From contig NZ_JASVWB010000002.1 in NCBI RefSeq assembly GCF_030287445.1, forward strand, positions 1,364,001 to 1,428,000: a stretch of 64,000 nt of DNA, in the 5' to 3' direction. This stretch comes from Streptomyces sp. ALI-76-A (lineage in GTDB: Bacteria > Actinomycetota > Actinomycetes > Streptomycetales > Streptomycetaceae). The notes beneath the pieces were generated by a model. That model ran no database searches. It worked only from the letters and a program-made list of their open reading frames with translations, and was not told where the DNA came from. Position 1 is the stretch's first letter; every line of letters begins with the position of its first letter. Position numbers and translations under genes: made by a program. This document shows positions 6,580-33,615 of this stretch, one piece after another.

Positions 6580-6617
6580 GGGGGTTCTCCTGTCGTGGGG
6601 CCGCCGACGCCGACGGG

Positions 6618-7640: not shown

Positions 7641-7706
7641 CGGGCACCTCGTTCTCGTCAGGGAGGGGTGGGACGTTGCGGGCGGGGTGACGGGCGGCCT
7701 GGGGCG

Positions 7707-10603: not shown

Positions 10604-11000
10604 GGATTCTCCTGGACTCGCCGAAGGGATCTCATCGCTCCGCCCGGCTCAAGGTGTACGGGAATCGGTCACCGGGTCAGGAGACGGCCTTCTCGGAGGC
10701 CGCACGATTCAGCATATGAGCGTAAATAGGACTTTTCGGAGTCCGACAGCACGGGCTGCGCCGATCAGCCGGTAGCGCATGAGGGGAGCCGTCTCCTCCC
10801 GTCCCGGCACCGCCCGGATCTGAAGGGGGCGCCACCCCGCCACGGTTCATCCCTTGGCGTGACGACACCGCGTGTCGGCCCGGCCGCCGTCGTCCCGCGC
10901 CCGGATGCCGTTCGCCGGACGGCCCGCGTCGTGCCGCTGCCGGCGAGTGCCTCGGGGCGAGGCCCGGAAGCGCCCGCACACCCCGCCGCGCGGCGAGCCG
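10604..11000. other. Intergenic region upstream of the exopolysaccharide operon
   Basis: About 400 bp without a supportable gene. The part nearest the decarboxylase start holds a locally AT-rich patch (about 10708-10735) with the 12-mer AGCATATGAGCG at 10711-10722, also found before the GAPDH gene. Read on the minus strand it contains TATGCT, a possible -10 element, without a convincing -35. The remaining 260 bp toward uppP show no coding signal. Confidence 0.5.
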
Positions 11001-11837
11001 TCAGCCGCTCAGCGCACCGGTGGCCAGCAGCCCGAACAGCAGCACGCCCACGGCGATCCGGTAGATCACGAACGCGTTGAAGGAGTGCTTCGCGACGAAC
11101 CTCAGCAGCCAGGCGACGGAGGCGTAGGCGACGGCGAAGGAGACGGCGGTCCCGACGGCGAGCGGCGCCATGCCCACCCCCGCGCCCAGCGCGTCCTTCA
11201 GCTCGTACAGGCCGGCGCCGGTCAGGGCGGGGATGCCGAGGAAGAAGGAGAGCCGGGTGGCGGCCACCCGGTCCAGGTCGAGAAGGAGCGCCGTGGACAT
11301 GGTGGCGCCGGAGCGGGAGAAACCGGGGAAGAGCAGAGCCAGGATCTGGGAGCCGCCGACCAGCATCGTGTCCTTGAAGGAGGTGTCGTCCTCCCCGCGC
11401 TGGTGCCGACCCGTCCGGTCCGCCGCCCACATGACACCGCTGCCGGCGATCAGCGAGGCGGCGACCACCCACAGCGAGGCGAGCGGTCCTTGGACGAGCG
11501 GCTCGGCGGCCAGGCCCACGACGACGATCGGGACCGTCGCGCAGATCACCCACCAGGCGAACCTGTAGTCGCGGTGGTGACGCTCCTCGCGGTGGGCGAG
11601 CCCCCGGCCCCACGCGGAGACGATCCGGACGATGTCCTGGAAGAAGTACACGAGGACCGCGGCGATCGCGCCGACCTGGATGACGGCCGAGAAGCCGACG
11701 ACGGCGTCGTCGTCGACGGGGATCCCCATGAGGCCCTCGACGATCTTCAGATGGCCGGTGGAGGACACCGGCAGGAACTCGGTCACCCCTTCGACGGCTC
11801 CGAGGACGACGGCCTGACCGACGCTGATGACGCTCAT
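11001..11837 (-). CDS. uppP: Undecaprenyl-diphosphate phosphatase (UppP/BacA)
   Basis: 278 residues, about eight membrane helices. It dephosphorylates undecaprenyl diphosphate so the lipid carrier of cell-wall and polysaccharide synthesis can be reused; the family also gives bacitracin resistance. The acidic signature EGVTEFLPVSSTGHL (16-30) and the second signature FPGFSRSGAT are intact. ATG 11837 gives the normal N-terminus. It follows the crcB genes on the same strand after 63 bp and may be co-transcribed with them. Nearby exopolysaccharide genes would also draw on the carrier pool. Confidence 0.95.
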   Translation of the reverse strand: MSVISVGQAVVLGAVEGVTEFLPVSSTGHLKIVEGLMGIPVDDDAVVGFSAVIQVGAIAAVLVYFFQDIVRIVSAWGRGLAHREERHHRDYRFAWWVICATVPIVVVGLAAEPLVQGPLASLWVVAASLIAGSGVMWAADRTGRHQRGEDDTSFKDTMLVGGSQILALLFPGFSRSGATMSTALLLDLDRVAATRLSFFLGIPALTGAGLYELKDALGAGVGMAPLAVGTAVSFAVAYASVAWLLRFVAKHSFNAFVIYRIAVGVLLFGLLATGALSG

Positions 11838-11900: not shown

Positions 11901-12275
11901 TTACCCCCACACGGCCCGCGCCAGGCCCACCCCGGCGAAAACCGCGCCCAGACCGGCCGCCACGCTCGCGATCACGTTGGCGGCGGCGTAGCGCCCGGCA
12001 CCCGTCTCGGTCAGCCGGAGGGTCTCGTACGAGAAGGTCGAGTAGGTCGTCAGCGCCCCGCACAGACCGGTGCCCAGGAGCAGCTGGAGCTGGGAGTCGG
12101 CGGCTCCGGCGGCCGCCGCGCCGGTCAGCAGGCCGAGGACCAGACAGCCGGTGACGTTGACCGCGAAGGTGCCCCAGGGGAAGAGCGAGTCGTACCGGGA
12201 CCGCACCGCGCGGTCGGTCAGGTGGCGGAGCGGGGCGCCGACCATGGCGCCCACGACGACGAGCAGCCAGTTCAC
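11901..12275 (-). CDS. crcB: Fluoride channel CrcB/FluC, first paralogue
   Basis: 124 residues, four membrane helices. The Fluc signatures 'GAPLRHLTDR', 'PWGTFAVNVTGC' and 'GLCGALTTYSTFSYE' are all present, including the asparagine and the TTYSTFS strip that line the fluoride pore. Fluc channels are dual-topology dimers that export fluoride. The GTG start at 12275 overlaps the stop of the 39-codon DUF190-like mini-ORF (GTGA), so translation is probably coupled to the upstream crcB. Two different CrcB proteins in one operon suggest a heterodimer, as is known for paired Fluc genes. Confidence 0.94.
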   Translation of the reverse strand: MNWLLVVVGAMVGAPLRHLTDRAVRSRYDSLFPWGTFAVNVTGCLVLGLLTGAAAAGAADSQLQLLLGTGLCGALTTYSTFSYETLRLTETGAGRYAAANVIASVAAGLGAVFAGVGLARAVWG

Positions 12276-21569: not shown

Positions 21570-21593
21570 CCACCTAGCTCGAAAGAGATGCTC

Positions 21594-23066
21594 GTGACTG
21601 TCAAGGACGACTCGTTCACCAACTGGAAGACCCGCGAGGAGATCGCGGAGTCGATGATCCCCCTCATCGGGAAGCTGCATCGGGAGCGGGACGTCACCGT
21701 TCTGCTGCACAGCCGCTCCCTGGTGAACAAGTCGGTGGTGAGCATCCTCAAGACCCACCGCTTCGCCCGTCAGATCGCCGGTGAGGAGCTGTCGGTCACC
21801 GAGACGCTGCCGTTCCTGCGCACCCTCACCACCCTCGATCTCGGCCCGTCCCAGATCGACCTCGGCATGCTCGCCGCGACGTACCGGGCCGACGACCGCG
21901 GCCTGTCCGTGGAGGACTTCACCGCCGAGGCGGTGGCCGGTGCCACCGGCGCGAACCGGGCCGAACGGCGTGAGCCGCGCGACGTGGTCCTGTACGGCTT
22001 CGGCCGGATCGGCCGCCTCGTGGCGCGCCTGCTGATCGAGAAGACCGGCTCCGGCAACGGCCTGCGGCTGCGCGCCATCGTCGTGCGCGGCGGCGGGGCC
22101 GGCGAGGATCTCGTCAAGCGCGCCTCGCTGCTGCGGCGCGACTCGATCCACGGCCAGTTCCAGGGCACCATCACGGTCGACGAGGCGAACAGCACGATCG
22201 TCGCCAACGGCAACGAGATCAAGGTGATCTACGCCGACGACCCGGCATCGGTCGACTACACGGCGTACGGCGTCAAGAACGCCATCCTGATCGACAACAC
22301 CGGCAAGTGGCGCGACCGCGAGGGGCTGTCCGGTCACCTGCGTCCCGGCATCGACAAGGTCGTCCTGACCGCGCCGGGCAAGGGCGACGTCCCGAACATC
22401 GTGCACGGCGTGAACCACGACACGATCAAGCCGGACGAGCGGATCCTGTCCTGCGCGTCCTGCACCACCAACGCGATCGTGCCGCCGCTGAAGGCGATGG
22501 CGGACGAGTACGGCGTCCTGCGCGGCCACGTGGAGACCGTCCACTCGTTCACCAACGACCAGAACCTGCTGGACAATTACCACAAGGCCGACCGCCGGGG
22601 CCGGTCCGCGCCGCTCAACATGGTCATCACGGAGACGGGTGCCGCCTCCGCCGTCGCCAAGGCGCTGCCCGACCTCAAGGCGCCGATCACCGGCAGTTCG
22701 ATCCGGGTGCCGGTGCCGGACGTCTCGATCGCGATCCTCAGCCTGCGGCTGGGCCGTGAGACCACCCGCGAGGAGGTCCTCGACCATCTGCGCGACGTCT
22801 CGCTGACCTCTCCGCTCAAGCGCCAGATCGACTTCACCACGGCCCCCGACGCGGTCTCCAGCGACTTCATCGGCTCCCGCCACGCCTCGATCGTCGACGC
22901 CGGAGCGACCAAGGTCGACGGGGACAACGCGATCCTCTACCTCTGGTACGACAACGAGTTCGGCTACTCCTGCCAGGTCATCCGCGTCGTCCAGCACGTC
23001 TCGGGCGTGGAGTACCCCACGTACCCGGCCCCTGCCCCGGCCTCCGCCCCGCTCCCGGTGGCCTGA
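21594..23066 (+). CDS. gap: Glyceraldehyde-3-phosphate dehydrogenase, long form
   Basis: 490 residues from GTG 21594, chosen over ATG 21588 because GAAAGAG lies six bases before the GTG. An N-terminal extension of about 130 residues ('SFTNWKTREEIAESMIPLIGKLHRERDVTVLLHSR...') precedes the NAD-binding GFGRIG (135-140). The catalytic cysteine is C290 in SCASCTTNA, and 'HSFTNDQN' and 'LWYDNEFGYS' follow. The long GAPDH form is a known actinobacterial second paralogue. It interconverts glyceraldehyde-3-phosphate and 1,3-bisphosphoglycerate. A strong stem-loop follows the stop. Confidence 0.93.
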   Translation: MTVKDDSFTNWKTREEIAESMIPLIGKLHRERDVTVLLHSRSLVNKSVVSILKTHRFARQIAGEELSVTETLPFLRTLTTLDLGPSQIDLGMLAATYRADDRGLSVEDFTAEAVAGATGANRAERREPRDVVLYGFGRIGRLVARLLIEKTGSGNGLRLRAIVVRGGGAGEDLVKRASLLRRDSIHGQFQGTITVDEANSTIVANGNEIKVIYADDPASVDYTAYGVKNAILIDNTGKWRDREGLSGHLRPGIDKVVLTAPGKGDVPNIVHGVNHDTIKPDERILSCASCTTNAIVPPLKAMADEYGVLRGHVETVHSFTNDQNLLDNYHKADRRGRSAPLNMVITETGAASAVAKALPDLKAPITGSSIRVPVPDVSIAILSLRLGRETTREEVLDHLRDVSLTSPLKRQIDFTTAPDAVSSDFIGSRHASIVDAGATKVDGDNAILYLWYDNEFGYSCQVIRVVQHVSGVEYPTYPAPAPASAPLPVA

Positions 23067-23150: not shown

Positions 23151-24089
23151 TCAGCAGGGCTTCCGCCACACCCCCAGTTCCGGTTCCTTCACCATCGAGG
23201 ACAGCTTCAGGCGGCGGGACTCGGCGCAGAAGCTGCTTCTCGGTTCCGTGTACTCCACGTGGAACACCGCCTTGCCGGCCGCGATGAACGGAGCGAGTCG
23301 CCCGCACTCGTCGTACTGCGCGCACTCCTCGTTGACCGCGAAGTCGAAGTCGGCCAGGAGCTGGGGGATCTGCGGAAGGTCGTTCTTCAGACCCACCGAC
23401 AGTCCGCGCTGATGGGCGACGGCCGCGATCATGCGGTTGTACGCGAGCTGGTCGCGTGCGGTGAGCGGGAAGCCGGTGTCGTTGCCGTAGCCCTCCACCA
23501 GGTCCGGCTCCACCGCGTCGAAGCCCTTGTCACGGCACATGTCGAAGCGCCGCTCCATGATCGGCCGCAGGACGGAGACCTGCCGGATGTCCAGCCACCG
23601 TTCGCCCGCCCAGCCGTTGGGCCTTCCGAGCACCGAGCGCGGGAAGGCGTCCTTGTCGGGCCGGAAGTCCTCCCAGGCGCCGACGTTGACGTAACAGATG
23701 ACCTTGCGGCCGTCGCGGTGCAGACGGGCCACGTCGGCCGCGGAGTTCTCGAAACCGTCGATGTCGTAGACGGGCACGTCGGCCGACGGGTCGGCCCTTC
23801 CGTCCAGTTGCCACTGCCAGGCCAGGCCGGGACGCGGCTTCCACCGCGCCTTCCCCGGGCTCGTCGAAGTCCCGGGCGAGTGTGGGGAGTTGCCGGCGTC
23901 CGGCGCCGCCCGGGGGCCGTCGGCGCGGGGCGTGCCGGACGCCGTGCCGCGTGCGTCGGCGGACGGGCCGCCGTCCGCGGTGGCGCCCCCGGCGTCCGCG
24001 CCCGGGGTGCCGGACGTACCGGAACAGCCGGTCAGCGCCGAGGCTCCCAGCGCGGCCAGCAGGACGGCGGTCAGGGCCGTGTTCCTCAT
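23151..24089 (-). CDS. GH114 endo-alpha-1,4-polygalactosaminidase-like lipoprotein (Ega3-like)
   Basis: 312 residues. The signal peptide ends in lipobox LTGC (C22), so it should be lipid-anchored outside the membrane. A low-complexity Gly/Ala/Pro/Ser linker (about 24-80) could span the wall. The catalytic domain begins 'GLAWQWQLDGRADPSADVPVYDIDGFENS' and holds 'VICYVNVGAWEDFRPD', 'WLDIRQ' and 'GFDAVEPDLVEGY', the acidic strand ends typical of GH114. Such enzymes cleave alpha-1,4-galactosamine polymers; Aspergillus Ega3 belongs to the family. The start overlaps the spherulin-4 stop (ATGA). It is the last gene of the GAG-like operon and could trim or release the polymer. Confidence 0.88.
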   Translation of the reverse strand: MRNTALTAVLLAALGASALTGCSGTSGTPGADAGGATADGGPSADARGTASGTPRADGPRAAPDAGNSPHSPGTSTSPGKARWKPRPGLAWQWQLDGRADPSADVPVYDIDGFENSAADVARLHRDGRKVICYVNVGAWEDFRPDKDAFPRSVLGRPNGWAGERWLDIRQVSVLRPIMERRFDMCRDKGFDAVEPDLVEGYGNDTGFPLTARDQLAYNRMIAAVAHQRGLSVGLKNDLPQIPQLLADFDFAVNEECAQYDECGRLAPFIAAGKAVFHVEYTEPRSSFCAESRRLKLSSMVKEPELGVWRKPC

Positions 24090-24748
24090 GGTTCCGTCCC
24101 GGTCAGTGCGGGCGTCAACTCGGCCCAGGGGTTGGGTGGTTCACCGGTCACGGGCCCGCAGACGGCCGCGCCCCGCTCGTGTGCGGTGCGTACGGCGAGG
24201 GGTACGAGCGCCTCGGGCACACCGTAGACGAGATGGCACAGCCGCTCCGGTGGATGCCGTCCGGTCCACTCCGGTCTGCTGAACGCCGACACGTACGTCG
24301 ACCAGTGACCCTCGAACGTGACGGTCAGGTCGGCGAGGCGGGCGTAGCCGGGCGCCGGATGGACGCCGGGGTTGATGACGACCGTCCCCGCACCGAGCCG
24401 GCGGACGGCCCGCACCAGCCGGCGGCAGGCGGACAGGCCGTCCGGTGTCGCCGTCACCCGGTCGAGGAAGCAGCCGTCGGCGCCGTACCACTCCTGGTGC
24501 CGGCGTACGTCCTCGGTGATCGCGGTGGTCCCGCGCACCCCGTAGTCGGTGTCGACGTACCCGAGCAGCCGGGCCCCGGCCGCGCGCAGGGCGCCCGCCG
24601 CCGCCGTGAAGGCCGGGTCGGGACCGTCGCCCGGCCCGTCGGCGGGGTTGAGGACGACCCCGTAGGTACGGGTGGCGGCCGTGATCAGCCGGTGCCAGGC
24701 CCCCGGGTCCTCCGCCGGGTGGACGTAGAGCGGGATCAGCAGGGTCAT
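24086..24748 (-). CDS. Spherulin-4 family protein (GH135/Sph3-like)
   Basis: 220 residues. It begins 'MTLLIPLYVHPAEDPGAW' and continues 'YGVVLNPADGPGDGPDPAF', 'LLGYVDTDYGVR', 'YGADGCFLDRV' and 'VVINPGVHP', the linear signature of spherulin-4 TIM barrels. Aspergillus Sph3, an alpha-1,4-N-acetylgalactosaminidase needed for GAG synthesis, is in this family. I recall its active site using an Asp-Glu pair plus a later Glu. Here the pair reads D96-R97, while a later Glu (E146, TFEGHW) is kept. There is no signal peptide, so it should be cytoplasmic, unlike secreted relatives. ATGA overlaps with both neighbours show tight coupling. Confidence 0.85.
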   Translation of the reverse strand: MTLLIPLYVHPAEDPGAWHRLITAATRTYGVVLNPADGPGDGPDPAFTAAAGALRAAGARLLGYVDTDYGVRGTTAITEDVRRHQEWYGADGCFLDRVTATPDGLSACRRLVRAVRRLGAGTVVINPGVHPAPGYARLADLTVTFEGHWSTYVSAFSRPEWTGRHPPERLCHLVYGVPEALVPLAVRTAHERGAAVCGPVTGEPPNPWAELTPALTGTEP

Positions 24749-25644
24749 GGGGTGCGGTCGCCTCCCCCGCCGTCCCACAACGCGGTCAGCGCGTCGTCGA
24801 GGGTGTGGGCCGGGCGCCAGCCGAGGGCCCGGTCGGCGGCGGTGATGTCGGAGCACTGCCACGACACCTGCGCCGAGCGGGCCGAGCCGGCGGCGTTCTC
24901 CTCGATCCTTCCCCGGAAGCCCGCCCGGTCGGCCAGGCCCCGCACCAGGTCGCGCACCGGGACGGCCCGGCCGCCGCCGATGTTGAGGACGGGCGGCAGG
25001 GGGCCCGGGGCGGTGACCGCGCACGCCACCGCCCGCGCCACGTCACGGACGTCGACGAAGTCCCGGTACGCGGACAGGTCACCGAGCCGCAGCACCGCCT
25101 CGGGGTCCGGGCCGGCCACACGCAGCAGTCCCGCGATCCGGCCGGGCAGTCCGGCGGCCGGCGCCCCGGGGCCCACCGGGTTGCCCACCCGCAGCACCAC
25201 CGCGTCCAGGCCGGCGGTGGTCACGGCGACCGTGCCCGCGAGCTTGGTCGCGCCGTACGGGCCGACCGGGTGAGTGGCCGCCGACTCCGTGACCCGGCTG
25301 CCGGGGGCACCGGGGCCGTACTCGGCGGCCGAGCCCAGGTGCACCAGGCGGGCCGCGGGCGCCGCCTCGCGCAGCGCGGCGCACAGCACCGCGGGCCCGC
25401 GGGCGTTGACCTCCGCGAGGGTCACGGCGTCGCCGCCGGTCGCGCCCGCGCAGTTGATGACGGTGTCGGGGGTGGCCGCCGCGAGGGTCTTCGCCAGCCG
25501 CTCGGGGCGGACGGAGGCCAGGTCGACGGGGAACTCGGCGGACGAGCGTCCGCCGCCGAGGACCAGCGCGCCCGGCAGGGCACGCAGCCGCTCGGCGACA
25601 TGGCGGCCCAGGTAGCCGGTGTGCCCCAGGACGAAAATGCGCAT
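24745..25644 (-). CDS. NAD-dependent epimerase/dehydratase (extended SDR)
   Basis: 299 residues. An N-terminal GHTGYLGRHV Rossmann motif (7-16), 'VINCAGATGG', 'LVHLGSAAEYGPG' with the Ser site, and 'VGPYGATKLAGT' with the Y-x3-K pair. The C-terminal half has 'YRDFVDVRDVARAV' and 'LGWRPAHTLDDALTALW'. The family reduces, epimerises or dehydrates nucleotide sugars. Whether this one is the C4 epimerase that a galactosamine polymer would need cannot be settled from motifs. It sits seven bases after the nucleotidyltransferase gene and overlaps the spherulin-4 gene (ATGA). Confidence 0.85.
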   Translation of the reverse strand: MRIFVLGHTGYLGRHVAERLRALPGALVLGGGRSSAEFPVDLASVRPERLAKTLAAATPDTVINCAGATGGDAVTLAEVNARGPAVLCAALREAAPAARLVHLGSAAEYGPGAPGSRVTESAATHPVGPYGATKLAGTVAVTTAGLDAVVLRVGNPVGPGAPAAGLPGRIAGLLRVAGPDPEAVLRLGDLSAYRDFVDVRDVARAVACAVTAPGPLPPVLNIGGGRAVPVRDLVRGLADRAGFRGRIEENAAGSARSAQVSWQCSDITAADRALGWRPAHTLDDALTALWDGGGGDRTP

Positions 25645-25651
25645 GTGGTGC

Positions 25652-26365
25652 TCAGGCTCCCTTGAGCAGAAGCGACTTGCGGCTGGTGAACTCCGCGTTG
25701 GCCCGGTCGTAGTCGTCCGGGCGCCCGATGTCCAGCCAGTACCCGTCGAAGTCGTAGGCGTGCGGCAGATTCTGGGCGGCCAGCAGGTCGAGCACCAACT
25801 CGTCGAAGCCCAGGGGCAGTCCGGGCGTGTAGCCGTCGAGGGTGGAGCGGGACAGGCCGTAGACGCCCATGGAGACCCGGTAGTCCATGCTGGGCTTCTC
25901 GGTGAACGCGACGACCCTGCTGGAGTCGGTGGTCAGCACCCCGAAGTCGATGTGCACCTTGCGGGCGTACGTGGCGATGGTCAGCGGCCCGCCCGACTCC
26001 CGGTGCCGGTGCAGGACGTCGGCGTAGTCCAGGTCGGTGAGGACGTCGCCGTTCATCACCAGGAACGTCTCGGGCAGCCGGTCGCGCAGGGTGAGCAGGG
26101 GGCCCATCGTGCCGAGCGGGCTCTCCTCGGTGGCGTAGTCGATGCTCATGCCCCACTGGGAGCCGTCGCCGACGTACGCGCGGATGATCTCGCCGAGGTG
26201 GCCGATGGCGATGGTGCAGCTGGTGAAGCCGGCCGTGGCGAGCTGGCGCAGCACGATCTCCAGGATGGCGTGCTGGTCGCCTATCGGGACGAGCGGCTTG
26301 GGCAGCGCGGTGGTGTAGGGCCGCAACCGGACACCCTTGCCTCCCGCCAGGATCACTACGTGCAT
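25652..26365 (-). CDS. Sugar-phosphate nucleotidyltransferase
   Basis: 237 residues from ATG 26365 with a GGAGGAG site. The N-terminal pyrophosphorylase signature is complete (MHVVILAGGKGVRLRPYTTALPKPLVPIGD). 'FLVMNGDVLTDLD' supplies the metal-binding Asp, and 'FTEKP' and 'YWLDIGRPDDYDRA' mark the substrate end. It makes an NDP-sugar from an NTP and a sugar 1-phosphate; short proteins of this type include GDP-mannose and dTDP/CDP-glucose pyrophosphorylases. It lacks the left-handed helix domain of acetyltransferase-fused GlmU. In the operon it would provide an activated sugar to the two SDR enzymes. Confidence 0.9.
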   Translation of the reverse strand: MHVVILAGGKGVRLRPYTTALPKPLVPIGDQHAILEIVLRQLATAGFTSCTIAIGHLGEIIRAYVGDGSQWGMSIDYATEESPLGTMGPLLTLRDRLPETFLVMNGDVLTDLDYADVLHRHRESGGPLTIATYARKVHIDFGVLTTDSSRVVAFTEKPSMDYRVSMGVYGLSRSTLDGYTPGLPLGFDELVLDLLAAQNLPHAYDFDGYWLDIGRPDDYDRANAEFTSRKSLLLKGA

Positions 26366-26415
26366 GGGGCTCCTCCTTCGTGGATGTGCGTGCGGGGACC
26401 TGTGCCGGACGGGGA

Positions 26416-27417
26416 TCAGATGTTGTAGATGCCGGTCTTGTAGCGAGCCAGGTTGGCCGGGTCGCGGAAGAACTCCACGGTGTGCGCGAGACCCTCCTCC
26501 AGCGTGTGGGCGGGCTGCCAGCCGGTGGCGGCGGCGAGCCGGCTCGCGTCCGCGACCAGCCGCATCACCTCGGAGTTCGCGGGCCGGATGCGGGCGGTGT
26601 CCTCGCGCACGTCCAGGGCCGTGTCCATCACCTTGCCGATCAGCGCGACGAGGTCGCCGACCGAGATCTCCCCGCCGGTCCCGGCGTTGAAGGTGCGGCC
26701 CACGACCTGGGCGGCGGGCGCGGTGCCGACCGCGAGGAACGCCTGCGCGGTGTCCTTGACGAAGGTGAAGTCCCGGGTGGGACGCAGGTCGCCGAGGGTG
26801 ATCGTCCGCTCCCCCGCCGCCACCTGGCCGATGACGGTGGGGATCACCGCCCGCATCGACTGGCGTGGTCCGAAGGTGTTGAACGGCCGCAGCGTCACCA
26901 CCGGGGTGTCGAAGCTCGCGTGGTAACTGTCGGCCAGCCGGTCCCCTCCCGCCTTCGAAGCGGCGTACGGCGACTGGGTGTTGATGGGGTGGTCCTCGGT
27001 GATCGGCACGGTCCTGGCGGTGCCGTAGGTCTCACTGGTGGAGGTGTGCACCAGACGGGGCGTGCCGAGGGCGCGTACCGCCTCCAGCACGTTGAGGGTG
27101 CCGGTGACGTTGGTGTCCACGTAGCTGTGCGGTGCCTGGTAGGAGTACGGGATCGCGATCAGGGCGGCCAGGTGGTAGGCGGTGTCGGCGCCTTCGAGGA
27201 GACCGCGGACCGAGCCCGGGTCGCGGACGTCGCCGAGGACGATCTCCACCTGGTCGAGGACGTCCGGGTGCAGGGTCTCCAGCCAGCCGTAGGAGGAGAA
27301 GGAGTTGTACTGGGCCATGGCCCTGACCCGGTGTCCCGAGGCGACCAGCGCCTCGGTGAGGTGGGAGCCGATGAAACCCTCGGCTCCGGTGACGGCGGCG
27401 AGCGGTGCGGAGGTCAA
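26416..27417 (-). CDS. LegB-like nucleotide-sugar SDR (4,6-dehydratase/epimerase)
   Basis: 333 residues from a TTG at 27417, accepted because GGAAGGA lies eight bases upstream and the frame begins correctly with 'LAAVTGAEGFIGSHLTEALVASGHRVRAM'. 'YNSFSSYGWLETL' after the second strand is the wording I associate with LegB-type NDP-sugar 4,6-dehydratases. 'HTSTSETYGTARTVPITEDHPINTQSPYAASKAGGD' holds the Thr/Ser and Y-x3-K catalytic residues, and 'RPFNTFGPRQS' follows. The product could be a 4-keto-6-deoxy or 4-epimerised NDP-sugar. A 4,6-dehydratase is not part of the fungal GAG set, so the bacterial polymer may contain an extra or different sugar. Confidence 0.87.
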   Translation of the reverse strand: MTSAPLAAVTGAEGFIGSHLTEALVASGHRVRAMAQYNSFSSYGWLETLHPDVLDQVEIVLGDVRDPGSVRGLLEGADTAYHLAALIAIPYSYQAPHSYVDTNVTGTLNVLEAVRALGTPRLVHTSTSETYGTARTVPITEDHPINTQSPYAASKAGGDRLADSYHASFDTPVVTLRPFNTFGPRQSMRAVIPTVIGQVAAGERTITLGDLRPTRDFTFVKDTAQAFLAVGTAPAAQVVGRTFNAGTGGEISVGDLVALIGKVMDTALDVREDTARIRPANSEVMRLVADASRLAAATGWQPAHTLEEGLAHTVEFFRDPANLARYKTGIYNI

Positions 27418-27528
27418 CTCGGGTGTCCTTCCGGTCGGTTCGGGCGTGCTTGGTGCTCGGGCGGGGGTGCTGTCCGGGCGTGCGCGGGGCGACGGTTCGT
27501 GCGGGGGCGGGGCTCTGCGGTGGGCACG

Positions 27529-28947
27529 TCAGACGTGCGGGGCGGGCCGTCCCAGGAGCCACAGCGCGCACCCCGCCAGACACAGCGCCGCCGCGCCGCA
27601 GCACAGCGGCAGCGCCGACGGGCCGGGGGGCAGGTTCAGCACGGTGACCGCCCCGGCGCCGCCCGCGGCGGCGAGGGTGATCAATGCCGACGGCCAGGCC
27701 GCACCGAAGGCCTGGAGCAGCAGCGCGGTCCACAGCGCCGCCGCGAGCAGCAGCAGGGCGGCCGGCTCCGCGCCGGTGAGCAGGGCCGCGGGCAGCAGCG
27801 GTAGGAGGTAGACGCACAGGCAGAGGCCGAGGATCCCGGCCGAGCGGAGCAGGAACCGGGCGGGCGTGGCGGTGGCGCGCAGCGCGGCGACCGACAGCCC
27901 GCGGTAGCGGTACAGCAGCCACTCCGCCGGGCCCATGCTCACGGTCAGCACGATCACCGCGTACGGCTCCTCCCGCCCCTCCAGCAGCACCAGCACGCCC
28001 GCCGCCAGTCCGAACAGGCCGTACGGCAGGGACCAGCGCAGGCGCGGGCGGGCGGCGCCGGGCACGGGCGGGACGGCGACAACGGTCCACAGGACCCGCC
28101 CGGTGACGGCGAGGGTGGCCAGCAGCGCCAGCAGCGGCAGCCCGGCCCGCGGCAGGGAGCCCGGCTCCCACCACGGCAGGACGGCGGCACCGGCGACCAG
28201 CGGGCTGAGCGCGGCCAGCAGCAGCCGTTCGCGCCCCAGCACCAGCAGGACGCCCGCCGCCGCGAGGTACGCCGACTGCGCGGCCGCCACCAGCGTCACC
28301 GGGCCGGCCTCGGCGGGCAGCGCGGCGACCGCGGTGGCGACCGCCGCTCCGAGGGGCGCGCCGACCAGGAGGGTACGGCCCGCTTCCCGCCGTCCGGTCG
28401 CCAGCCGCAGGTGGGCGCGGTGGCCCAGTGCCTGGCCCCAGGCCCAGGAGACGAGTCCCGCCACGATCAGGGCCGGGGCGTGACCGCCCGCGTCCCACAG
28501 GGGCGCGGTCAGCAGGTAGGCGAGTCCCGGGAGGGCGAACAGCACGCCCCGCAGGAGACAGCGCACGGTGTCCGGGCGCCACGGGTCGGCCGTCGGGGCG
28601 GGCTCCGGGAAGGTGCGCGGCACCCGCTCGTACAGCGCGGAGGCGAGCGAGAACAGGTTCGGGTGGCCGTACCGCTCCTTGATCAGGGAGGCGGACAGGC
28701 CCTCCGCCTCCAGCAGCGCGGCCACCTCGTAGGGGTGGACGGCGGGGCCGACGCGGTCGGCGAGTTCGGCGGCGAGTTCGCTGACCGCCTCCTCGTCGGG
28801 GCCGCGCCGGGGCATCCGGATGGCGAGCGTGCTGTCGTCCAGGGCCCAGCGGGGCCGGCGGCGCGCGGGGCGGGGTGGTTCCGCGAGCCGCAGTGCCAGC
28901 GTGTCCTGTTCGCAACCGCCCGGTTCGAGCGATATCGGGCCGCTCAT
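27529..28947 (-). CDS. Polytopic membrane protein of the GAG-like cluster, possible exporter
   Basis: 472 residues from ATG 28947, which overlaps the GT4 stop (ATGA). The first 130 residues are soluble and include 'DEEAVSELAAELADRVGPAVHPYEVAALLEAEGLSASLIKERYGHPNLFSLASALYERVPR', which looks like a small helical domain. About eleven membrane helices follow. No recognised transporter motif stands out. By position next to a PelF-like transferase it takes the place of PelG, the membrane partner of Pel synthesis, so chain export or assembly is a reasonable guess. No homology to PelG is claimed. Confidence 0.7.
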   Translation of the reverse strand: MSGPISLEPGGCEQDTLALRLAEPPRPARRRPRWALDDSTLAIRMPRRGPDEEAVSELAAELADRVGPAVHPYEVAALLEAEGLSASLIKERYGHPNLFSLASALYERVPRTFPEPAPTADPWRPDTVRCLLRGVLFALPGLAYLLTAPLWDAGGHAPALIVAGLVSWAWGQALGHRAHLRLATGRREAGRTLLVGAPLGAAVATAVAALPAEAGPVTLVAAAQSAYLAAAGVLLVLGRERLLLAALSPLVAGAAVLPWWEPGSLPRAGLPLLALLATLAVTGRVLWTVVAVPPVPGAARPRLRWSLPYGLFGLAAGVLVLLEGREEPYAVIVLTVSMGPAEWLLYRYRGLSVAALRATATPARFLLRSAGILGLCLCVYLLPLLPAALLTGAEPAALLLLAAALWTALLLQAFGAAWPSALITLAAAGGAGAVTVLNLPPGPSALPLCCGAAALCLAGCALWLLGRPAPHV

Positions 28948-30452
28948 CCGGCCACCGTGCTCACCGGCGCGAGCGCCTGTGGCGTGGCCGGGACGGGCGT
29001 CGACCGCCGTGTCCGGGTGGGCAGTTCGAGGTAGATGGCGCGGAACGTGTCGATGGTCTGGCGCAGGGTGAACTGCTCGATCACCCGCAGCCGTGCCGCC
29101 TCGCCCATCGTCCGGCGGCGCTCGGGGTCGCGCAGCAGGTCCAGCGCTGCCGCGGCCATCGCGGCCGGATCGCGCGGCGGCACCACCAGTCCGGTGTCGC
29201 CGACGGCCTCGCGCACGCCGCCCACATCGGTGGAGACGGTCGCCCGCCCGCACGACATGGCCTCGATCAGGGTGAACGGGAAGCCCTCGCTGATGCTGGA
29301 CAGCATCACGACATTGCCGGCCGCGTAGGCGTCCTTGATGTCGTCGACGCGGCCCTCGAAGGTGACGGCGTCCGCGTGTCCGAGTGCGGCGGCCAGCGCC
29401 GCGCACCGGTCCCGGTAGGCCTCTCCGCCGCGTGGTGTCCCGCCGAACAACCGCAGCCGGGTGTGCGGGAGTCGAGCCCGTACCAGCGAGAAGGCGCGGA
29501 TCAGGGTCTCCAGGTCCTTGATGGGGTCGACCCGGCCCGCCCAGCTGAGGGTGGGTGCCTGCGGCTCGGGTCCGGCCGGCGGGAACGCGGCCGGGTCCAC
29601 GCCGTTGTAGACCGTGCGGATCGACTCCGGGTCGGCGCCGCCCTGTTCCTCCCACAGCCGGTTGTAGCGGTTGCCCGGCGTGATCAGGGCCGCCCGGCGG
29701 TAGCTCTCCTCCGCCAGCAGCCGGAAGAACCCGAGCATGACGGCCTTCACCGGCCAGCGGTACGGGGCGGTGCGGTACCCGAGGTAGCGCTCGCGCAGAT
29801 AGACGCCGTGCTCGGTCAGCAGCAGCGGCACGCCGTGCCGTTCGAGCGCGGCGAGGCCGGGCAGCACCGCGACCCCTCCACTGACGGCGTGCGCCACCCC
29901 GTCCTGCGGTGTCGGCGCGGCCAGCGGGCGCAGCGCGTGTTCCAGCAGAGCGGTGGCGGTGAGGGCGTCGTGCAGGGTGGGCCGGGCCTCGCGCACGGCC
30001 CGGCCCGGCCGGTTCCACACATCGGCCAGGATCGCGACGGCCCGGTCGCCGCGCAGGAACGGGCTCAGCGCCCCGTCCGCCGCGGCCCGCGCCATGGCGT
30101 ACAGGGCGGGCGCGAACCCCTCCTCGGCGCGGGGATCGACCAGCGCGGTCAGGAACCGCTCGTAGGCGGCGGCGAGTCGGTTACGGGCCCGCCCGCGGGG
30201 CGCACGGCCCTCGGGCGGGTCGCCCCACATGGGGACGGACAGCAGGTGCGAGACATGGGCGGGCAGGTCCCAGACGACGGGTTCGCGTCCCGTGCCGGTG
30301 ACGGCGATGACGTCGAAGTCGATGTCGGGCATGCCCTGGACGAGTTGGTCGCACCAGACGCTCACGCCGCCGTGACTGTGCGGGTAGGTGCCTTCGGTGA
30401 GCAGGGTGACGCGCGTCACGCCGGGGCGTCGCGCGCCGTGGGGAACGTGCAT
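28944..30452 (-). CDS. GT4 glycosyltransferase, PelF/Gtb3-like (DUF3492 N-terminus)
   Basis: 502 residues. The N-terminal 'RVTLLTEGTYPHSHGGVSVWCDQLVQGMPDIDFDVIAV' is the DUF3492 signature shared by PelF of bacterial Pel clusters and, as I recall, the GAG synthase Gtb3 of Aspergillus. The GT-B fold continues with 'LLLTEHGVYLRER', 'ALITPGNRYNRLWEEQGGADPESIRTVYNGVD', 'SWAGRVDPIKDLETLIRAF' and the EX7E motif E389-E397 (SEGFPFTLIEAM). It has no membrane segment. PelF uses UDP-N-acetylhexosamine, so this enzyme is the proposed polymerase of the cluster. It is coupled to the membrane-protein gene and lies 97 bp downstream of the deacetylase gene. Confidence 0.9.
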   Translation of the reverse strand: MHVPHGARRPGVTRVTLLTEGTYPHSHGGVSVWCDQLVQGMPDIDFDVIAVTGTGREPVVWDLPAHVSHLLSVPMWGDPPEGRAPRGRARNRLAAAYERFLTALVDPRAEEGFAPALYAMARAAADGALSPFLRGDRAVAILADVWNRPGRAVREARPTLHDALTATALLEHALRPLAAPTPQDGVAHAVSGGVAVLPGLAALERHGVPLLLTEHGVYLRERYLGYRTAPYRWPVKAVMLGFFRLLAEESYRRAALITPGNRYNRLWEEQGGADPESIRTVYNGVDPAAFPPAGPEPQAPTLSWAGRVDPIKDLETLIRAFSLVRARLPHTRLRLFGGTPRGGEAYRDRCAALAAALGHADAVTFEGRVDDIKDAYAAGNVVMLSSISEGFPFTLIEAMSCGRATVSTDVGGVREAVGDTGLVVPPRDPAAMAAAALDLLRDPERRRTMGEAARLRVIEQFTLRQTIDTFRAIYLELPTRTRRSTPVPATPQALAPVSTVAG

Positions 30453-30491
30453 CGGTGTGCTCCACGGCCGGGGTGTGGGGTGGTTCGTACG

Positions 30492-30521
30492 GGTCCCGGC
30501 CGCCGTCGGGCGGCCGGGACC
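30492..30521 (-). terminator. Intercistronic hairpin between deacetylase and GT4 genes
   Basis: GGTCCCGGCCGCC and GGCGGCCGGGACC form a perfect 13-bp stem with a GTCG tetraloop, 28 bp past the deacetylase stop and 40 bp before the GT4 start. It could terminate the deacetylase transcript, attenuate the operon or stabilise the upstream mRNA. Confidence 0.7.
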
Positions 30522-30549
30522 TTCGAGCGGTCCCTGGGTCGGTGTGCCC

Positions 30550-32679
30550 TCAGCTGCCCGCGGTGTACGGAACCGGCTCGGTCACGCCCGCGGGGACACG
30601 GGTGTCCGGCGCGGGCTCGGTGGCCGGGGCGGTTTCGGCGGTGCCGGCCGCCGGGGCGGCGGCGGACGCCGGCAGGGTGAGACTCAGTGGGGTGCCCGCC
30701 GAGGGCGTCCAGCCGGACACCTGGCCCGCGTAGGGCGCGCCGAAGGCGGCGCCGGCCAGGGTGGTGCCGGCGGGCGCGGTCGCCGGCACGGTCAGCCCGT
30801 CCGGCGCCGCGACGGTCACCTCGGCACCGATGCGGTAGGCGCTGACCTCGCCGGCCCGCAGGGCGGCCTGCCAGGCGGCCCTGCGCCGGAGTTCGGTGCC
30901 GATGTCCTTCATCCGCGGGTTCACCACGGGGGTGTTGTCCGCGAAGAGGGTGCCGTAGCCGTCCAGGACACCGCTCAGCACCGGGTAGGCGATGCGGTCC
31001 TCGGCCAGGTTGGACTGGTGGATGAAGTGCGGCCTGGGGTCGTTGGACAGCACGTGCCCGAGCGCGATCCGGGTCTCCAGCGGGACGATGTGCTCGGCGT
31101 AGCCGGTGGCGGTGTCCAGCGGCGCCGCGAGACACGTCGTGGTGGCCGGGTTGTCCTCGCAGACGCCGCTGCCGCCCTGGGCGCGGCTCGTGTAGATCCA
31201 GTTGTACTCGTCGACCTGCTCGGCCGCCCGGCCCGCGTTGTAGAAGACGTTCATCGGGTAGCGGGGGACGGTGGTGGCCGTGCCGACCCGGCGCTGGACG
31301 GGCTCGCGGGAGTTGTCCGAGCCGAGCCAGGAGATGTCGTTGTCCTCGAGGGCGAGCGCCAGGTTGGGGTTGTCCTCGGACTGCTGCGGCAGCACCTTCG
31401 TGCCGGAGTGCTCACCGGTGACCAACTCGTCGTTCTCCAGCGGGAGTCCGGCCAACTGTCCCCATACGCGGTTGGTGGCGATCTCGTCGGAGATCTCGGT
31501 GCGGCTGACCCAGCGGGTGCTGCCGTCGGCGTGGGTGGAGCATGTCCAGGGGACGGTCGTGGTGTCCTGCACGCAGCCGAGGAAGGGGTGCGAGTAGGTG
31601 TGGTTGATCCAGCGGAACCGGTTGCGGTCCGCGATCAGCTTGTCCGCGAGGGCGTCGGCGCCGTTGTTGTCCTGGCGGTGGTCGACGCTGCCGGCGCCGT
31701 TGTAGGCGAAGTCGAGGGTGAAGTCGTGGCTGTCCTGCCAGGCGGTGGCGTGGTCGACGTCCGCGGGCGTCATCCGGATCGGGTCGGGCGTGGCGTCGGG
31801 ATCCGTGCAGTCGACGTCGCCGGGTGTGCAGTTGAGGGTGGTGTTCCAGCGGTCGTCGGCGGCGAACACGTCGTCCACGTGCACCGCGAAGTAGTTGCGG
31901 GAGGCGCCGAGGTGGACCCCGCCGGTCATCCACTCCACGATGCCGCGGGCCAGCAGCCGGAACTGCTGCTGGTACTGGTTGTAGACGAACGTGACGACGA
32001 GTTCGCGCCGCCCGTCGTGCCGGTACTCGCCCACCAGGGAGCCCCGCGCCGACCGCCCGGGGATCGGGGCGTCGACGTACGACGTGAAGTCGGCGCCCGG
32101 CGCGGGTGTCGACAGGTAGGCGTAACTCTCGCCCACGGCCGGGTCGTTGTCCTCGAAGGGCACCGCGCCGTCGAGGTAGCCGAAGGGGCCCGCCCGGCCG
32201 GCGGAGGTCACCGAGGCCCGCACCCCGTCCACGCCGCCGGCGTAGCCGCCGTGCACCGGGTAGTGCAGACCCGCCTCCGGACGCGCGTAGGTGTAGGCGT
32301 CGACCTGGGGGATCGCGTACGTCCGCTCGTAGGCCGCGAGCGCCGCCATCTCCGTCGAACCGGCCGCGAACGGGTTGTCGTTGGGCAGGACGACGGCCTG
32401 GAACTTCGCGCGCGGGCGGCCGTCCGCAGTGTCCGCGAGGAAGCCGGCGTCGATCACGGGCCGGTCGGCACGCGTGAGGTCGATCTCGGTGTACGGCGTT
32501 CCGGCCGCGTCCAGTTCCGCCGCGATGGCGTCGGTGGACGGACCGCCGTCGCTCACCACCAGCACGCGCAGGTCGATGCGGGGCGTGGTGTCGGCGGCGT
32601 GGGCCGCGCCGGCCGGCAGGCCGAGTGCGACGACGAGCGCGCCCACCGTCAGCGCCGTCGTGCGTATGCTCCGCTTCAT
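30550..32679 (-). CDS. Secreted Agd3-like (CE18-type) polysaccharide deacetylase
   Basis: 709 residues from ATG 32679 with GGGGAGGGG upstream. A Sec signal ends at AHA (about residue 28) and no membrane anchor follows. The N-terminal third starts 'RIDLRVLVVSDGGPSTDAIAAELDAAGTPYTEIDL'. The deacetylase core holds 'NYFAVHVDDVF' with D269/D270 and 'WINHTYSHPFLGC' with the H-x3-H pair H360/H364. These are the metal-site motifs of polysaccharide deacetylases in the form I associate with Agd3 of the Aspergillus GAG cluster. The C-terminus is a predicted beta region plus a Pro/Ala/Thr tail. Such an enzyme would partly de-N-acetylate the secreted polymer and make it cationic. It is the first gene of the set. 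Confidence 0.82.
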   Translation of the reverse strand: MKRSIRTTALTVGALVVALGLPAGAAHAADTTPRIDLRVLVVSDGGPSTDAIAAELDAAGTPYTEIDLTRADRPVIDAGFLADTADGRPRAKFQAVVLPNDNPFAAGSTEMAALAAYERTYAIPQVDAYTYARPEAGLHYPVHGGYAGGVDGVRASVTSAGRAGPFGYLDGAVPFEDNDPAVGESYAYLSTPAPGADFTSYVDAPIPGRSARGSLVGEYRHDGRRELVVTFVYNQYQQQFRLLARGIVEWMTGGVHLGASRNYFAVHVDDVFAADDRWNTTLNCTPGDVDCTDPDATPDPIRMTPADVDHATAWQDSHDFTLDFAYNGAGSVDHRQDNNGADALADKLIADRNRFRWINHTYSHPFLGCVQDTTTVPWTCSTHADGSTRWVSRTEISDEIATNRVWGQLAGLPLENDELVTGEHSGTKVLPQQSEDNPNLALALEDNDISWLGSDNSREPVQRRVGTATTVPRYPMNVFYNAGRAAEQVDEYNWIYTSRAQGGSGVCEDNPATTTCLAAPLDTATGYAEHIVPLETRIALGHVLSNDPRPHFIHQSNLAEDRIAYPVLSGVLDGYGTLFADNTPVVNPRMKDIGTELRRRAAWQAALRAGEVSAYRIGAEVTVAAPDGLTVPATAPAGTTLAGAAFGAPYAGQVSGWTPSAGTPLSLTLPASAAAPAAGTAETAPATEPAPDTRVPAGVTEPVPYTAGS

Positions 32680-33087: not shown

Positions 33088-33615
33088 TCAGGCGCAGAGC
33101 ACGCGCGTCTCCGGCGTGTAGACCGGTCCGCCGCTGGCGCTCGTACGGTCGCTGAACTCGGCGTAGTAGTACGAGTAGAAGCCGATGTTTCCGTTGCAGC
33201 CGGAGTCGGCGGCGACCTGGAGCGTCAGCGTGACGGTGCGGCTCTGGCCGGGTGGGACGGTGGCGCCGTAGTTGGTGCCGAGATCGGCGGGGCCGGTCCC
33301 GGCGCAGGGGGTGGGGCCGGCGGCCGTGGCCAGGCTGCACCCGGTGAAGCCGTACTTCAGGTCGGGGCGCTGGGTGGTCAGCCACGTCGGTTCGATCGTC
33401 TGGTACACGAACCAGATGTCGTAGGTCTTGTTGTTGGTGATCGTCATCGACAGGTTCACCGTGCCGCCGGGCGTGGTGGTGGCGCTGTCGGTGGTGAACG
33501 TCAGTTCGGCCGGTGCCGGGTCGGCCGCGCTCGCGGCGGGGGCCAGGCCGAACACGGCGAGGACGAGGGCGAGGACGGCGCCGAGGCCGAGACGTCTCAT
33601 GAGTGGTGATCGCAT
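33088..33615 (-). CDS. Small secreted protein with Ig-like/CARDB-type domain
   Basis: 175 residues from ATG 33615 (alternative 33600); neither start has a good ribosome-binding site. A signal peptide ends near PAASA (residue 30). The mature part ('AELTFTTDSATTTPGGTVNLSMTITNNKTYDIWFVYQTI', 'VPPGQSRTVTLTLQVA') has the strand pattern of an extracellular Ig-like domain such as CARDB or DUF11. Four cysteines could form two disulphides (FTGCSL, TPCAG, SGCNG, VLCA). Function is unknown. It is on the same strand as the GAG-like genes but upstream of them and separated by 408 bp. Confidence 0.75.
   Translation of the reverse strand: MRSPLMRRLGLGAVLALVLAVFGLAPAASAADPAPAELTFTTDSATTTPGGTVNLSMTITNNKTYDIWFVYQTIEPTWLTTQRPDLKYGFTGCSLATAAGPTPCAGTGPADLGTNYGATVPPGQSRTVTLTLQVAADSGCNGNIGFYSYYYAEFSDRTSASGGPVYTPETRVLCA

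Follow-up and report, generated by a model that had tools for sequence, protein, structure and literature searches.

Does this Streptomyces locus encode the synthesis and export of a galactosamine-type polysaccharide, and if so, of which chemistry? Streptomyces walls hold low galactosamine polysaccharide and S. griseus has a galactosaminidase, both as cited in the excerpted text of PMC7229062; among the papers listed by our literature searches, none linked a galactosamine polymer to Streptomyces genes. The locus lies in a 64,000-nucleotide stretch of Streptomyces sp. ALI-76-A (the window), in which an earlier note had seen a bacterial match to the Aspergillus galactosaminogalactan (GAG) cluster.

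An Eight-Gene Operon Recurs Across Related Loci

The eight genes of the proposed set are all on the minus strand inside 23151-32679, as the earlier note had them, and are given here in their 5' to 3' order, followed by a conserved gene upstream:

30550..32679, minus strand: Agd3-like carbohydrate de-N-acetylase, CE18 with a CBM87-like N-terminal domain, 709 aa (profile and fold)
28944..30452, minus strand: PelF-class GT4 glycosyltransferase, DUF3492 and GT4, 502 aa (NF038011, PF11997)
27529..28947, minus strand: MATE/MOP-fold membrane protein, N-terminal helical domain, 472 aa (structure model)
26416..27417, minus strand: SDR1, LegB-like nucleotide-sugar 4,6-dehydratase, 333 aa, TTG start (TIGR04180, motif)
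25652..26365, minus strand: sugar-1-phosphate nucleotidyltransferase, 237 aa (PF00483)
24745..25644, minus strand: SDR2, probable NDP-4-keto-6-deoxyhexose reductase, 299 aa (PF01370, solved relatives)
24086..24748, minus strand: spherulin-4 family hydrolase (Sph3 class), 220 aa (PF12138, Sph3 5c5g)
23151..24089, minus strand: GH114 endo-alpha-1,4-galactosaminidase (Ega3 class), lipoprotein-type signal, 312 aa (PF03537, Ega3 6oj1)
33088..33615, minus strand: small secreted protein, 175 aa (conserved upstream gene; start placed manually, translation checked)

ATGA overlaps are present at the three junctions where they had been reported, GT4/membrane protein, SDR2/spherulin-4 and spherulin-4/GH114. 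When frames were listed by a gene-like G+C pattern over the codon positions, six of the eight genes appeared; the other two, encoding the membrane protein and spherulin-4, are absent because the script chose the longest frame, which begins at an upstream start.

Of 409 related loci in the genome collection, the neighborhood survey covered the best 80, all titled Streptomyces; these were chosen as nearest to the window's membrane protein and so describe the operon type rather than the genus. Within these 80 best of 409, the complete operon recurs in the same order on one strand in 58, and a further 11 lack only GH114. The 4-base overlap of GT4 and membrane protein is kept in 78/78 measurable loci of the same 80, and the SDR2/spherulin-4 overlap in 74/75. 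Because order and overlaps recur across related loci, the grouping of these genes is not chance. A scorable Agd3-like gene is absent from nine of the 80 best loci: two lie at contig edges (L068, L084), four hold fragments (L051, L069, L085, L113) and three show no trace of it (L047, L096, L105). The gene for the 175-aa protein, which matched no Pfam or NCBIfam family, is found upstream in 65 of the 80 best of 409 loci (64 of the 77 having room upstream), always on the same strand (65/65) and a median of 409 bases before the Agd3-like match. Copies of operon genes were also found on plasmids.

A PelF-Class Glycosyltransferase Is Paired with a MATE/MOP-Fold Membrane Protein

The PelF-like assignment of the GT4 holds: it scores 178.1 bits against the NCBIfam PelF model NF038011 (cut-off 100), matches the DUF3492 profile PF11997 at 1.2e-62, and stands alone among the genome's 15 matches to PelF in exceeding the cut-off. 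It is presumed to be a cytoplasmic polymerase. Its neighbor is modeled with the 12-helix MATE/MOP flippase fold, about 12 long helices being counted on the model; the best Foldseek TM is 0.45, and a MATE-like fold reveals no substrate. PelG itself belongs to the MATE/MOP superfamily (PMC13254593, excerpted text). By sequence, no Pfam family, PelG (PF16933) included, matched the membrane protein at E 0.01, and hhalign gave a probability of 0.06% against a thin profile of seven PelG rows and of 0.18% against one row. The GT4 and the membrane protein are naturally fused in four database proteins. We therefore propose, from the model and these fusions, that the membrane protein may be the polymer exporter in place of PelG.

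The Deacetylase and Hydrolases Resemble Agd3, Ega3 and Sph3

Profile and fold both bear out the suggested Agd3/CE18 class of the 709-residue protein. A profile built from 18 relatives matches Agd3 (6nwz_A) at 2.3e-34, spanning both domains, with heparan sulfate N-deacetylase next at 0.0031. Its AlphaFold model (pLDDT 82.6) recovers the Agd3 fold, with 6nwz_A as the top Foldseek match (E 5.9e-31, TM 0.66/0.70) and heparan sulfate N-deacetylase second (2.3e-19). The catalytic motifs CM1-CM4 align to those of Agd3, whose residue roles are described in PMC7229062, as D269-D270, H360/H364, R473 and H554; across the 18 sequences R473 is nearly invariant and the others invariant. Pfam Agd3_CE gives the protein 19.2 bits, below the cut-off of 27.6, which its relatives in loci L125 and L126 exceed, and plain phmmer against the PDB found no relative. 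An N-terminal signal peptide was judged present by eye. The profile and the model together make homology to Agd3/CE18 firm.

GH114 falls in the Ega3 class as anticipated (PF03537 2.4e-86, 289.2 bits against a cut-off of 27; Ega3 6oj1 6.2e-57), and its near-invariant D196/E254, 58 apart, match Ega3 D189/E247, the catalytic Asp189/Glu247 of PMC12054363. It is a predicted surface lipoprotein, a lipobox occurring in 62/65 sequences whose starts were chosen to permit one. The spherulin-4 protein is likewise of the expected class, GH135 (PF12138 5.5e-34, 118.2 bits against a cut-off of 30.2; Sph3 5c5g 3e-14). Its near-invariant D96 and E146 align with the FFDE and FEAT of Sph3, the catalytic Asp of which we take to be Asp166. 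The catalytic residues of Sph3 are given as Asp196/Glu222 in PMC12054363. No signal peptide was found on this protein, which begins MTLLIPLYVHP, and 80 of the 81 N-termini shown (of 85 scored) are alike; it is probably a cytoplasmic enzyme.

A Sugar-Nucleotide Trio in an Operon Lacking a GalE-Type Epimerase

The two SDRs had been called epimerase-type, a reading that the profiles do not support: against the GalE model SDR1 scores 140.1 bits and SDR2 45.5 (cut-off 262.3), so by profile scoring of both SDRs the operon lacks a Uge3/GalE-type epimerase. SDR1 reaches 449.9 bits against LegB TIGR04180, below the cut-off of 475, which its Deinococcus counterpart, 69% identical, passes with 478.1 bits. 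It stays below the cut-offs of its other models, dTDP-glucose 4,6-dehydratase (168.5) scoring above GDP-mannose dehydratase (80.8), and the solved structures closest to it belong to dTDP- and UDP-sugar enzymes. The acid/base signature of SDR1, T127-S-E129..Y151xxxK155, is that of a dehydratase; UDP-glucuronate decarboxylases carry a similar motif, so the motif alone is no proof of a dehydratase. It equals the GDP-mannose 4,6-dehydratase line in Table 1 of PMC8987622, and LegB of C. jejuni takes GDP-GlcNAc (PMC7439481, excerpted text).

The nucleotidyltransferase (PF00483 4.6e-39; 59% to its Deinococcus counterpart) falls far under the cut-off of every named NCBIfam model, the top one being mannose-1-phosphate guanylyltransferase (133.6 bits against 440), and its solved relatives also include uridylyl- and thymidylyltransferases. 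SDR2 (PF01370 2.3e-37) has as its nearest solved structures GDP-6-deoxy-D-mannose reductase (6x3b, 1.6e-17) and then GDP-6-deoxy-D-lyxo-4-hexulose reductase (2pk3, 1.6e-16). These similarities suggest that the trio makes a 6-deoxysugar, perhaps one linked to GDP, and hint at a residue other than galactosamine; with SDR1 and the nucleotidyltransferase below cut-offs and their solved relatives mixed, nucleotide and sugar are not fixed.

A conceivable though rather unlikely alternative is that the product is a true GalNAc/GalN polymer of the GAG/Pel kind, with UDP-GalNAc supplied by a galE elsewhere and the trio making either an unrelated sugar or, by a diverged pathway, that precursor itself. 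Agd3 and the characterized GH114 and Sph3 enzymes do act on alpha-1,4-GalNAc/GalN polymers (PMC7229062, PMC12054363; excerpted texts), and the genome holds four GalE-type matches above the cut-off; the strongest of these, at window 6618-7640, belongs to a separate gene group some 15.5 kb from the operon. Three same-genus sister loci (L026, L035, L036) also favor it, combining Agd3-like, GT4, membrane-protein and spherulin-4 genes without the trio; these operons work relatives of the GT4, exporter and Agd3-like protein without it, so the trio is not required for the backbone there. Against this reading, 79 of the 80 best loci carry the trio within the operon (the contig of L096 ends after the membrane protein), and the SDR1 signature is that of a dehydratase, not an epimerase. 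The trio also follows the GT4 and membrane protein in another phylum: a Deinococcus aquaticus plasmid carries GT4, membrane protein, LegB, nucleotidyltransferase and reductase in the same order, then two Agd3-like genes.

Relationship to GAG and Pel Systems

Relatives of agd3, sph3 and ega3 are clustered with a PelF-class glycosyltransferase in both the Streptomyces operon and the Aspergillus cluster (uge3, gtb3, agd3, sph3, ega3). The claimed match thus stands for four of the five genes and fails for uge3: the SDRs score below the GalE cut-off, SDR1 has a dehydratase signature, and the operon lacks the uge3-type UDP-Glc/GlcNAc 4-epimerase that the fungal cluster has. Gtb3, described as a single transmembrane glycosyltransferase (PMC4817252), has two proteins as its counterpart, polymerase and membrane part. 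The operon also adds three sugar-nucleotide genes and the upstream secreted protein, and, unlike in Aspergillus, its spherulin-4 carries no export signal. The expectation that chemistry or export would differ from the fungal set is borne out by the trio and by the operon's own MATE/MOP-fold candidate exporter.

Bacterial agd3 operons are already in print: Bamford 2020 (PMC7229062) describes an Agd3 homologue, a cytoplasmic glycosyltransferase, a multi-spanning membrane protein and GH114, with spherulin-4 in some actinobacterial cases. These are of the same class, and the idea of bacterial GAG-like operons, reported in 2020, is not new. The excerpted text of PMC7229062 mentions no membrane-protein fold, trio or upstream gene, although its figure 8c may show some of these. 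Beyond that text, our analysis adds the MATE/MOP fold without detectable PelG sequence relation, the GT4 fusions, the dehydratase-nucleotidyltransferase-reductase trio, the signal-less spherulin-4, the upstream gene and the plasmid copies.

With Pel operons (pelDE-A/ADA-FG) the Streptomyces operon shares a PelF above the NCBIfam cut-off and a membrane protein of PelG's superfamily fold. Pel operons have PelG itself, whereas the Streptomyces genome has none above the cut-off (one partial match, 27 bits against 29). The deacetylase matches Agd3/CE18, whereas PelA of Pel founds CE21 (PMC12022489, excerpted text), and the GH114 and spherulin-4 hydrolases are also unlike Pel. A PelD profile search found no match in the genome, nor in the control genomes, and so has no positive control behind it. 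Two loci from other families of the same phylum (L030, L032) likewise bring together PelF-like, Agd3-like and spherulin-4 genes, but with a canonical PelG in place of the MATE/MOP membrane protein; PelG scores 475.3 bits in L030, and both genomes exceed the PelG cut-off.

Proposed Function

We consider it fairly probable that this is a conserved operon of the Pel/GAG class, making a synthase-dependent exopolysaccharide akin to the sticky amino-sugar polymers in biofilms of Aspergillus and Pseudomonas, as follows. The PelF-like GT4 would polymerize an alpha-linked chain of N-acetylhexosamine in the cytoplasm and hand it to the MATE/MOP-fold membrane protein for export, a step suggested by families, fold and natural fusions. 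Outside, the secreted Agd3-like enzyme would, by analogy with Agd3, strip part of the N-acetyl groups to leave a cationic, sticky chain, whose deacetylated stretches the GH114 lipoprotein may cleave, as Ega3 would. The spherulin-4 enzyme, having no export signal, probably works inside the cytoplasm, on chains that have stalled or been misrouted. The weakest step of the scheme concerns the trio: its nucleotidyltransferase, LegB-like dehydratase and reductase would probably yield a 6-deoxyhexose or 6-deoxyhexosamine linked to a nucleotide, perhaps GDP, and this sugar would be built into the polymer, either in the backbone or as a side residue. The enzyme classes thus support the earlier proposal insofar as a secreted, deacetylated amino-sugar polymer is the likely product; a galactosamine-rich chain is one candidate composition.

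A bolder version, which we regard as speculative and unlikely, is a 6-deoxy analogue of GAG and Pel, in which a PelF-class synthase, coupled to a new family of MOP exporters, would polymerize a nucleotide-linked, most likely GDP-linked, 6-deoxyhexosamine built by the trio (QuiNAc or FucNAc, for example). The Agd3-like enzyme would then yield a cationic, more hydrophobic adhesive, and the module would have spread on plasmids between phyla.

It is quite improbable that the product is instead a wall-bound glycopolymer or surface glycan, with a 6-deoxy residue from the trio and chains trimmed by GH114 and spherulin-4, even if GH114 is predicted to sit at the surface and galactosamine polysaccharides are cited for Streptomyces cell walls (PMC7229062). 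In none of the eight proteins does Pfam find a family for wall attachment or for polyprenyl-phosphate sugar transfer. In Pel, moreover, the PelF-class synthase makes a free polymer, which counts against a wall glycan. That the locus scavenges GAG or Pel of fungi or other bacteria, as two hydrolases and a deacetylase might suggest, is highly implausible, given a PelF-class polymerase, exporter-like protein and sugar-nucleotide enzymes in one operon of overlapping genes and a spherulin-4 without export signal.

As a Pel/GAG-class system, the operon provides a defined gene set for the question of the Streptomyces galactosamine polysaccharide, and bears on the published idea of a bacterial origin of the fungal cluster. 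Should the membrane protein prove to be the exporter, Pel-class exporters would have a second branch, as yet unnamed, within the MOP superfamily. A trio that feeds the chain would extend the chemistry of the Pel/GAG class beyond GalNAc/GalN, which would matter for biofilm-breaking enzymes and detection lectins; and if the product is a 6-deoxy analogue, two such polymers would be expected from those Streptomyces that carry both types of operon.

Organization of the operon and its conserved upstream gene

The eight genes reported by the earlier note are confirmed, all on the minus strand and in the order listed below, within a genome of 9.69 Mb. Their intergenic distances, 5' to 3' along the eight genes, are 97, -4, 111, 50, 7, -4 and -4 bases.

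23151-32679, minus strand: Agd3-like deacetylase, PelF-like GT4, membrane protein, SDR1, nucleotidyltransferase, SDR2, spherulin-4 and GH114
33088-33615, minus strand: gene for a small secreted protein that fits no known family; it precedes the operon
21588-23066, opposite strand: GAPDH-like gene (identified from its translation), next after the operon
5152-11837, minus strand: second polysaccharide group comprising a UDP-sugar dehydrogenase, GalE, a GT2 and another SDR, then UppP/BacA
11901-12275: CrcB, beside this second group

To define the borders of the operon, we used the best 80 of 409 related loci, selected for the similarity of their membrane protein to that of the window; a gene counted as present when a single match covered 35% or more of the query, with 45% identity additionally required for the SDRs. 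The upstream gene is retained in 65 of the 80 loci and the GAPDH-like gene in only four, so the conserved set probably comprises nine genes. Within our sample across the phylum, the upstream protein accompanies operons of the window type at L022, L024 and L025, not at L023, and none was seen at three loci (L026, L035 and L036) that lack SDR1, the nucleotidyltransferase and SDR2, hereafter the trio. No RNA element in the window scored above the Rfam gathering thresholds, a promoter scan returned none, and terminator-like matches occurred at chance level. Within the second polysaccharide group, the GT2 weakly resembles cellulose synthase, and the GalE is a true GalE (416 bits), the strongest galE of the genome.

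Synthase, putative exporter and outer enzymes

The GT4 matches Pfam DUF3492 (1.2e-62) plus GT4 domains, and scores 178.1 bits against the NCBIfam PelF model (cut-off 100). It contains both an E-x7-E motif and an R and K five residues apart, which we take to be the catalytic residues of PelF. The adjacent membrane protein, a putative exporter, belongs to no Pfam family, and its profile matched nothing among PDB sequences up to E 1. It is not a recognizable PelG, the canonical Pel membrane protein: there was no profile relation with either one or seven PelG sequences, the seven-sequence profile being thin (two rows from genomes, five from plasmids). A joined GT4 and membrane-protein query, aimed at fungal Gtb3, gave 1269 rows; no fungus is named among the top 120, where some entries are nameless. 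Among six long candidate fusion proteins examined, P0355 is without the membrane part, and in P0295 the match to the membrane protein ends at residue 257; we therefore do not include either among the fusions. Viral contigs yielded no match to six short membrane-protein patterns, and a search of the genome for PelD found none, as was also the case for the control genomes.

The GH114 protein is assigned both by Pfam (2.4e-86) and by its PDB match to Ega3 (6oj1, 6.2e-57). In the GH114 lipobox count, start codons were chosen so as to allow a lipobox; hydropathy and the structure model served to assess signal peptides and membrane helices.

For the Agd3-like protein, the Pfam Agd3_CE match (6.7e-4) falls below the Pfam cut-off, which counts against our main reading of a Pel/GAG-class operon, and plain phmmer against the PDB gave no match. 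However, a profile of 18 relatives matches Agd3 at 2.3e-34, covering the CBM87 and esterase domains, and Agd3 is the best match of the predicted structure (E 5.9e-31, TM 0.66/0.70), with human heparan sulfate N-deacetylase next (2.3e-19). All four catalytic motifs align with Agd3, although motifs 1 and 2 lie closer together, at 90 residues (D270-H360) compared with 132 in Agd3 (D378-H510, numbered as in PMC7229062). PMC12022489 and PMC13254593 assign PelA to CE21 and leave PelADA outside any existing family, so the deacetylase here is Agd3-type and not Pel-type. Also counting against the reading, the Agd3-like gene is fragmentary (L051, L069, L085, L113) or without trace (L047, L096, L105) in seven of the 80 loci, with two more at contig edges. 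In those seven the GT4 and membrane-protein genes stay, and deacetylation has possibly been lost in some species. Overall, the matches to PelF, Agd3, Ega3 and Sph3 (the last at 3e-14) show that the class of system was correctly named in the earlier note, whose galactosamine-rich polymer is a hypothesis.

Spherulin-4 accompanies the synthase

Spherulin-4 is recognized by Pfam (Spherulin4, 5.5e-34), and its PDB match is the Sph3 structure 5c5g. Its N-terminus aligns with the first barrel segment of Sph3, with no signal peptide, and the same start is found in 80 of the 81 N-termini displayed (85 were scored), the other having a different start. N-terminal hydropathy, as the best 12-residue mean, has a median of 1.27 (range 0.59-2.06), near the window's SDR1 (1.28), nucleotidyltransferase (1.41) and SDR2 (1.31) and below the Agd3-like proteins (median 2.32). 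A paralogous group was found elsewhere on the same contig:

L133 6462-11846 (contig position approximately 5.792-5.798 Mb): GT4, short membrane-protein-like frame, SDR2-like gene and spherulin-4

Across the 17 kb of L133, the Agd3-like, GH114 and nucleotidyltransferase proteins had no match in any neighbor, and the SDR1 match arises only via the SDR2-like gene. The genome holds this second synthase and spherulin-4 group, yet its sole Agd3-like match and its sole GH114 match lie inside the window; spherulin-4 thus goes along with the synthase, not the outer enzymes. This association would fit a cytoplasmic role for spherulin-4 in synthesis.

A conserved sugar-nucleotide trio

The trio is present in 79 of the 80 loci; at the other, L096, the contig stops after the membrane protein. 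Both SDRs belong to Pfam Epimerase, and the nucleotidyltransferase to NTP_transferase (4.6e-39). The suggestion that these SDRs include a uge3 counterpart was wrong, as both score far under GalE. SDR1 reaches 449.9 bits with the NCBIfam LegB model, just below the cut-off of 475, a shortfall that counts against the main reading. The simplest reading of these sequences is that the trio would produce a 6-deoxysugar nucleotide, which may be N-acetylated and may supply backbone or branch residues.

GDP is the likely carrier, though not surely so. SDR1 possesses a T-S-E..Y-x3-K motif where the window's galE has S-C-S, and this motif is the GDP-mannose dehydratase signature in Table 1 of PMC8987622; GDP-GlcNAc is the substrate of Campylobacter LegB (PMC7439481). 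The best solved relatives of SDR2 are GDP-6-deoxyhexose reductases, and the top model for the nucleotidyltransferase is mannose-1-phosphate guanylyltransferase, far under its cut-off. The scores of SDR1 speak against a GDP link, at 168.5 bits for the dTDP-glucose dehydratase model versus 80.8 for that of GDP-mannose, as do its closest solved relatives, which act on dTDP- and UDP-sugars.

Sister operons, plasmids and published relatives

Of 396 genomes drawn from across the phylum, 14, our own included, have an Agd3-like match, a sparsity that counts against the main reading; among the genomes listed, 6 of the 12 from the same genus have one. The trio-less sister operon of the same-genus loci L026, L035 and L036 also counts against it. 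Identity at these loci is 58-62% for the Agd3-like protein, about 65% for the GT4 and 41-44% for the membrane protein; spherulin-4 is present, and GH114 is found in L036. Two of these three genomes also possess the window type (L023, L025). Further variants were found:

L123 12001-21435, Streptomyces californicus linear plasmid: window-type operon with all eight genes, and with NRPS genes on both sides (four plasmid records matched, one examined)
L124 7714-16782, mobilizable Kocuria rosea plasmid: Agd3-like, pelF, membrane protein, spherulin-4 and GH114, trio-less
L033 7735-18267, from a different family within the same class: Agd3-like, GT4, membrane protein, nucleotidyltransferase, SDR2, UDP-sugar dehydrogenase, another SDR and a weak GH114-like gene

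On either side of the L124 operon lies a copy of the transposase WP_284563886.1, the two being on opposite strands, and the operon looks like the cargo of a composite transposon. The L033 set is a variant sugar cassette. A Deinococcus aquaticus plasmid is annotated with the order pelF, membrane protein, LegB, nucleotidyltransferase, reductase, two Agd3-like and two galactosaminidase-type genes, its trio sharing 69, 59 and 39% identity with the window's LegB, nucleotidyltransferase and reductase, respectively.

Such operons have been described: PMC7229062 reports Agd3 homologs in 45 bacterial species; of the 35 in its tree, 30 lie within or close to carbohydrate operons. Every operon identified there has a glycosyltransferase and a multi-spanning membrane protein, GH114 is highly consistent, some of the Actinobacteria operons include spherulin-4, and a bacterial-to-fungal transfer is favored. 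The central claim of the earlier note is therefore already in print, in outline; among the papers listed by our literature searches, no other deals with an operon of this kind in Streptomyces. New here are the exporter family, its role being putative, the conserved trio resembling a 6-deoxysugar pathway, a spherulin-4 that lacks an export signal, and the gene that precedes the operon.
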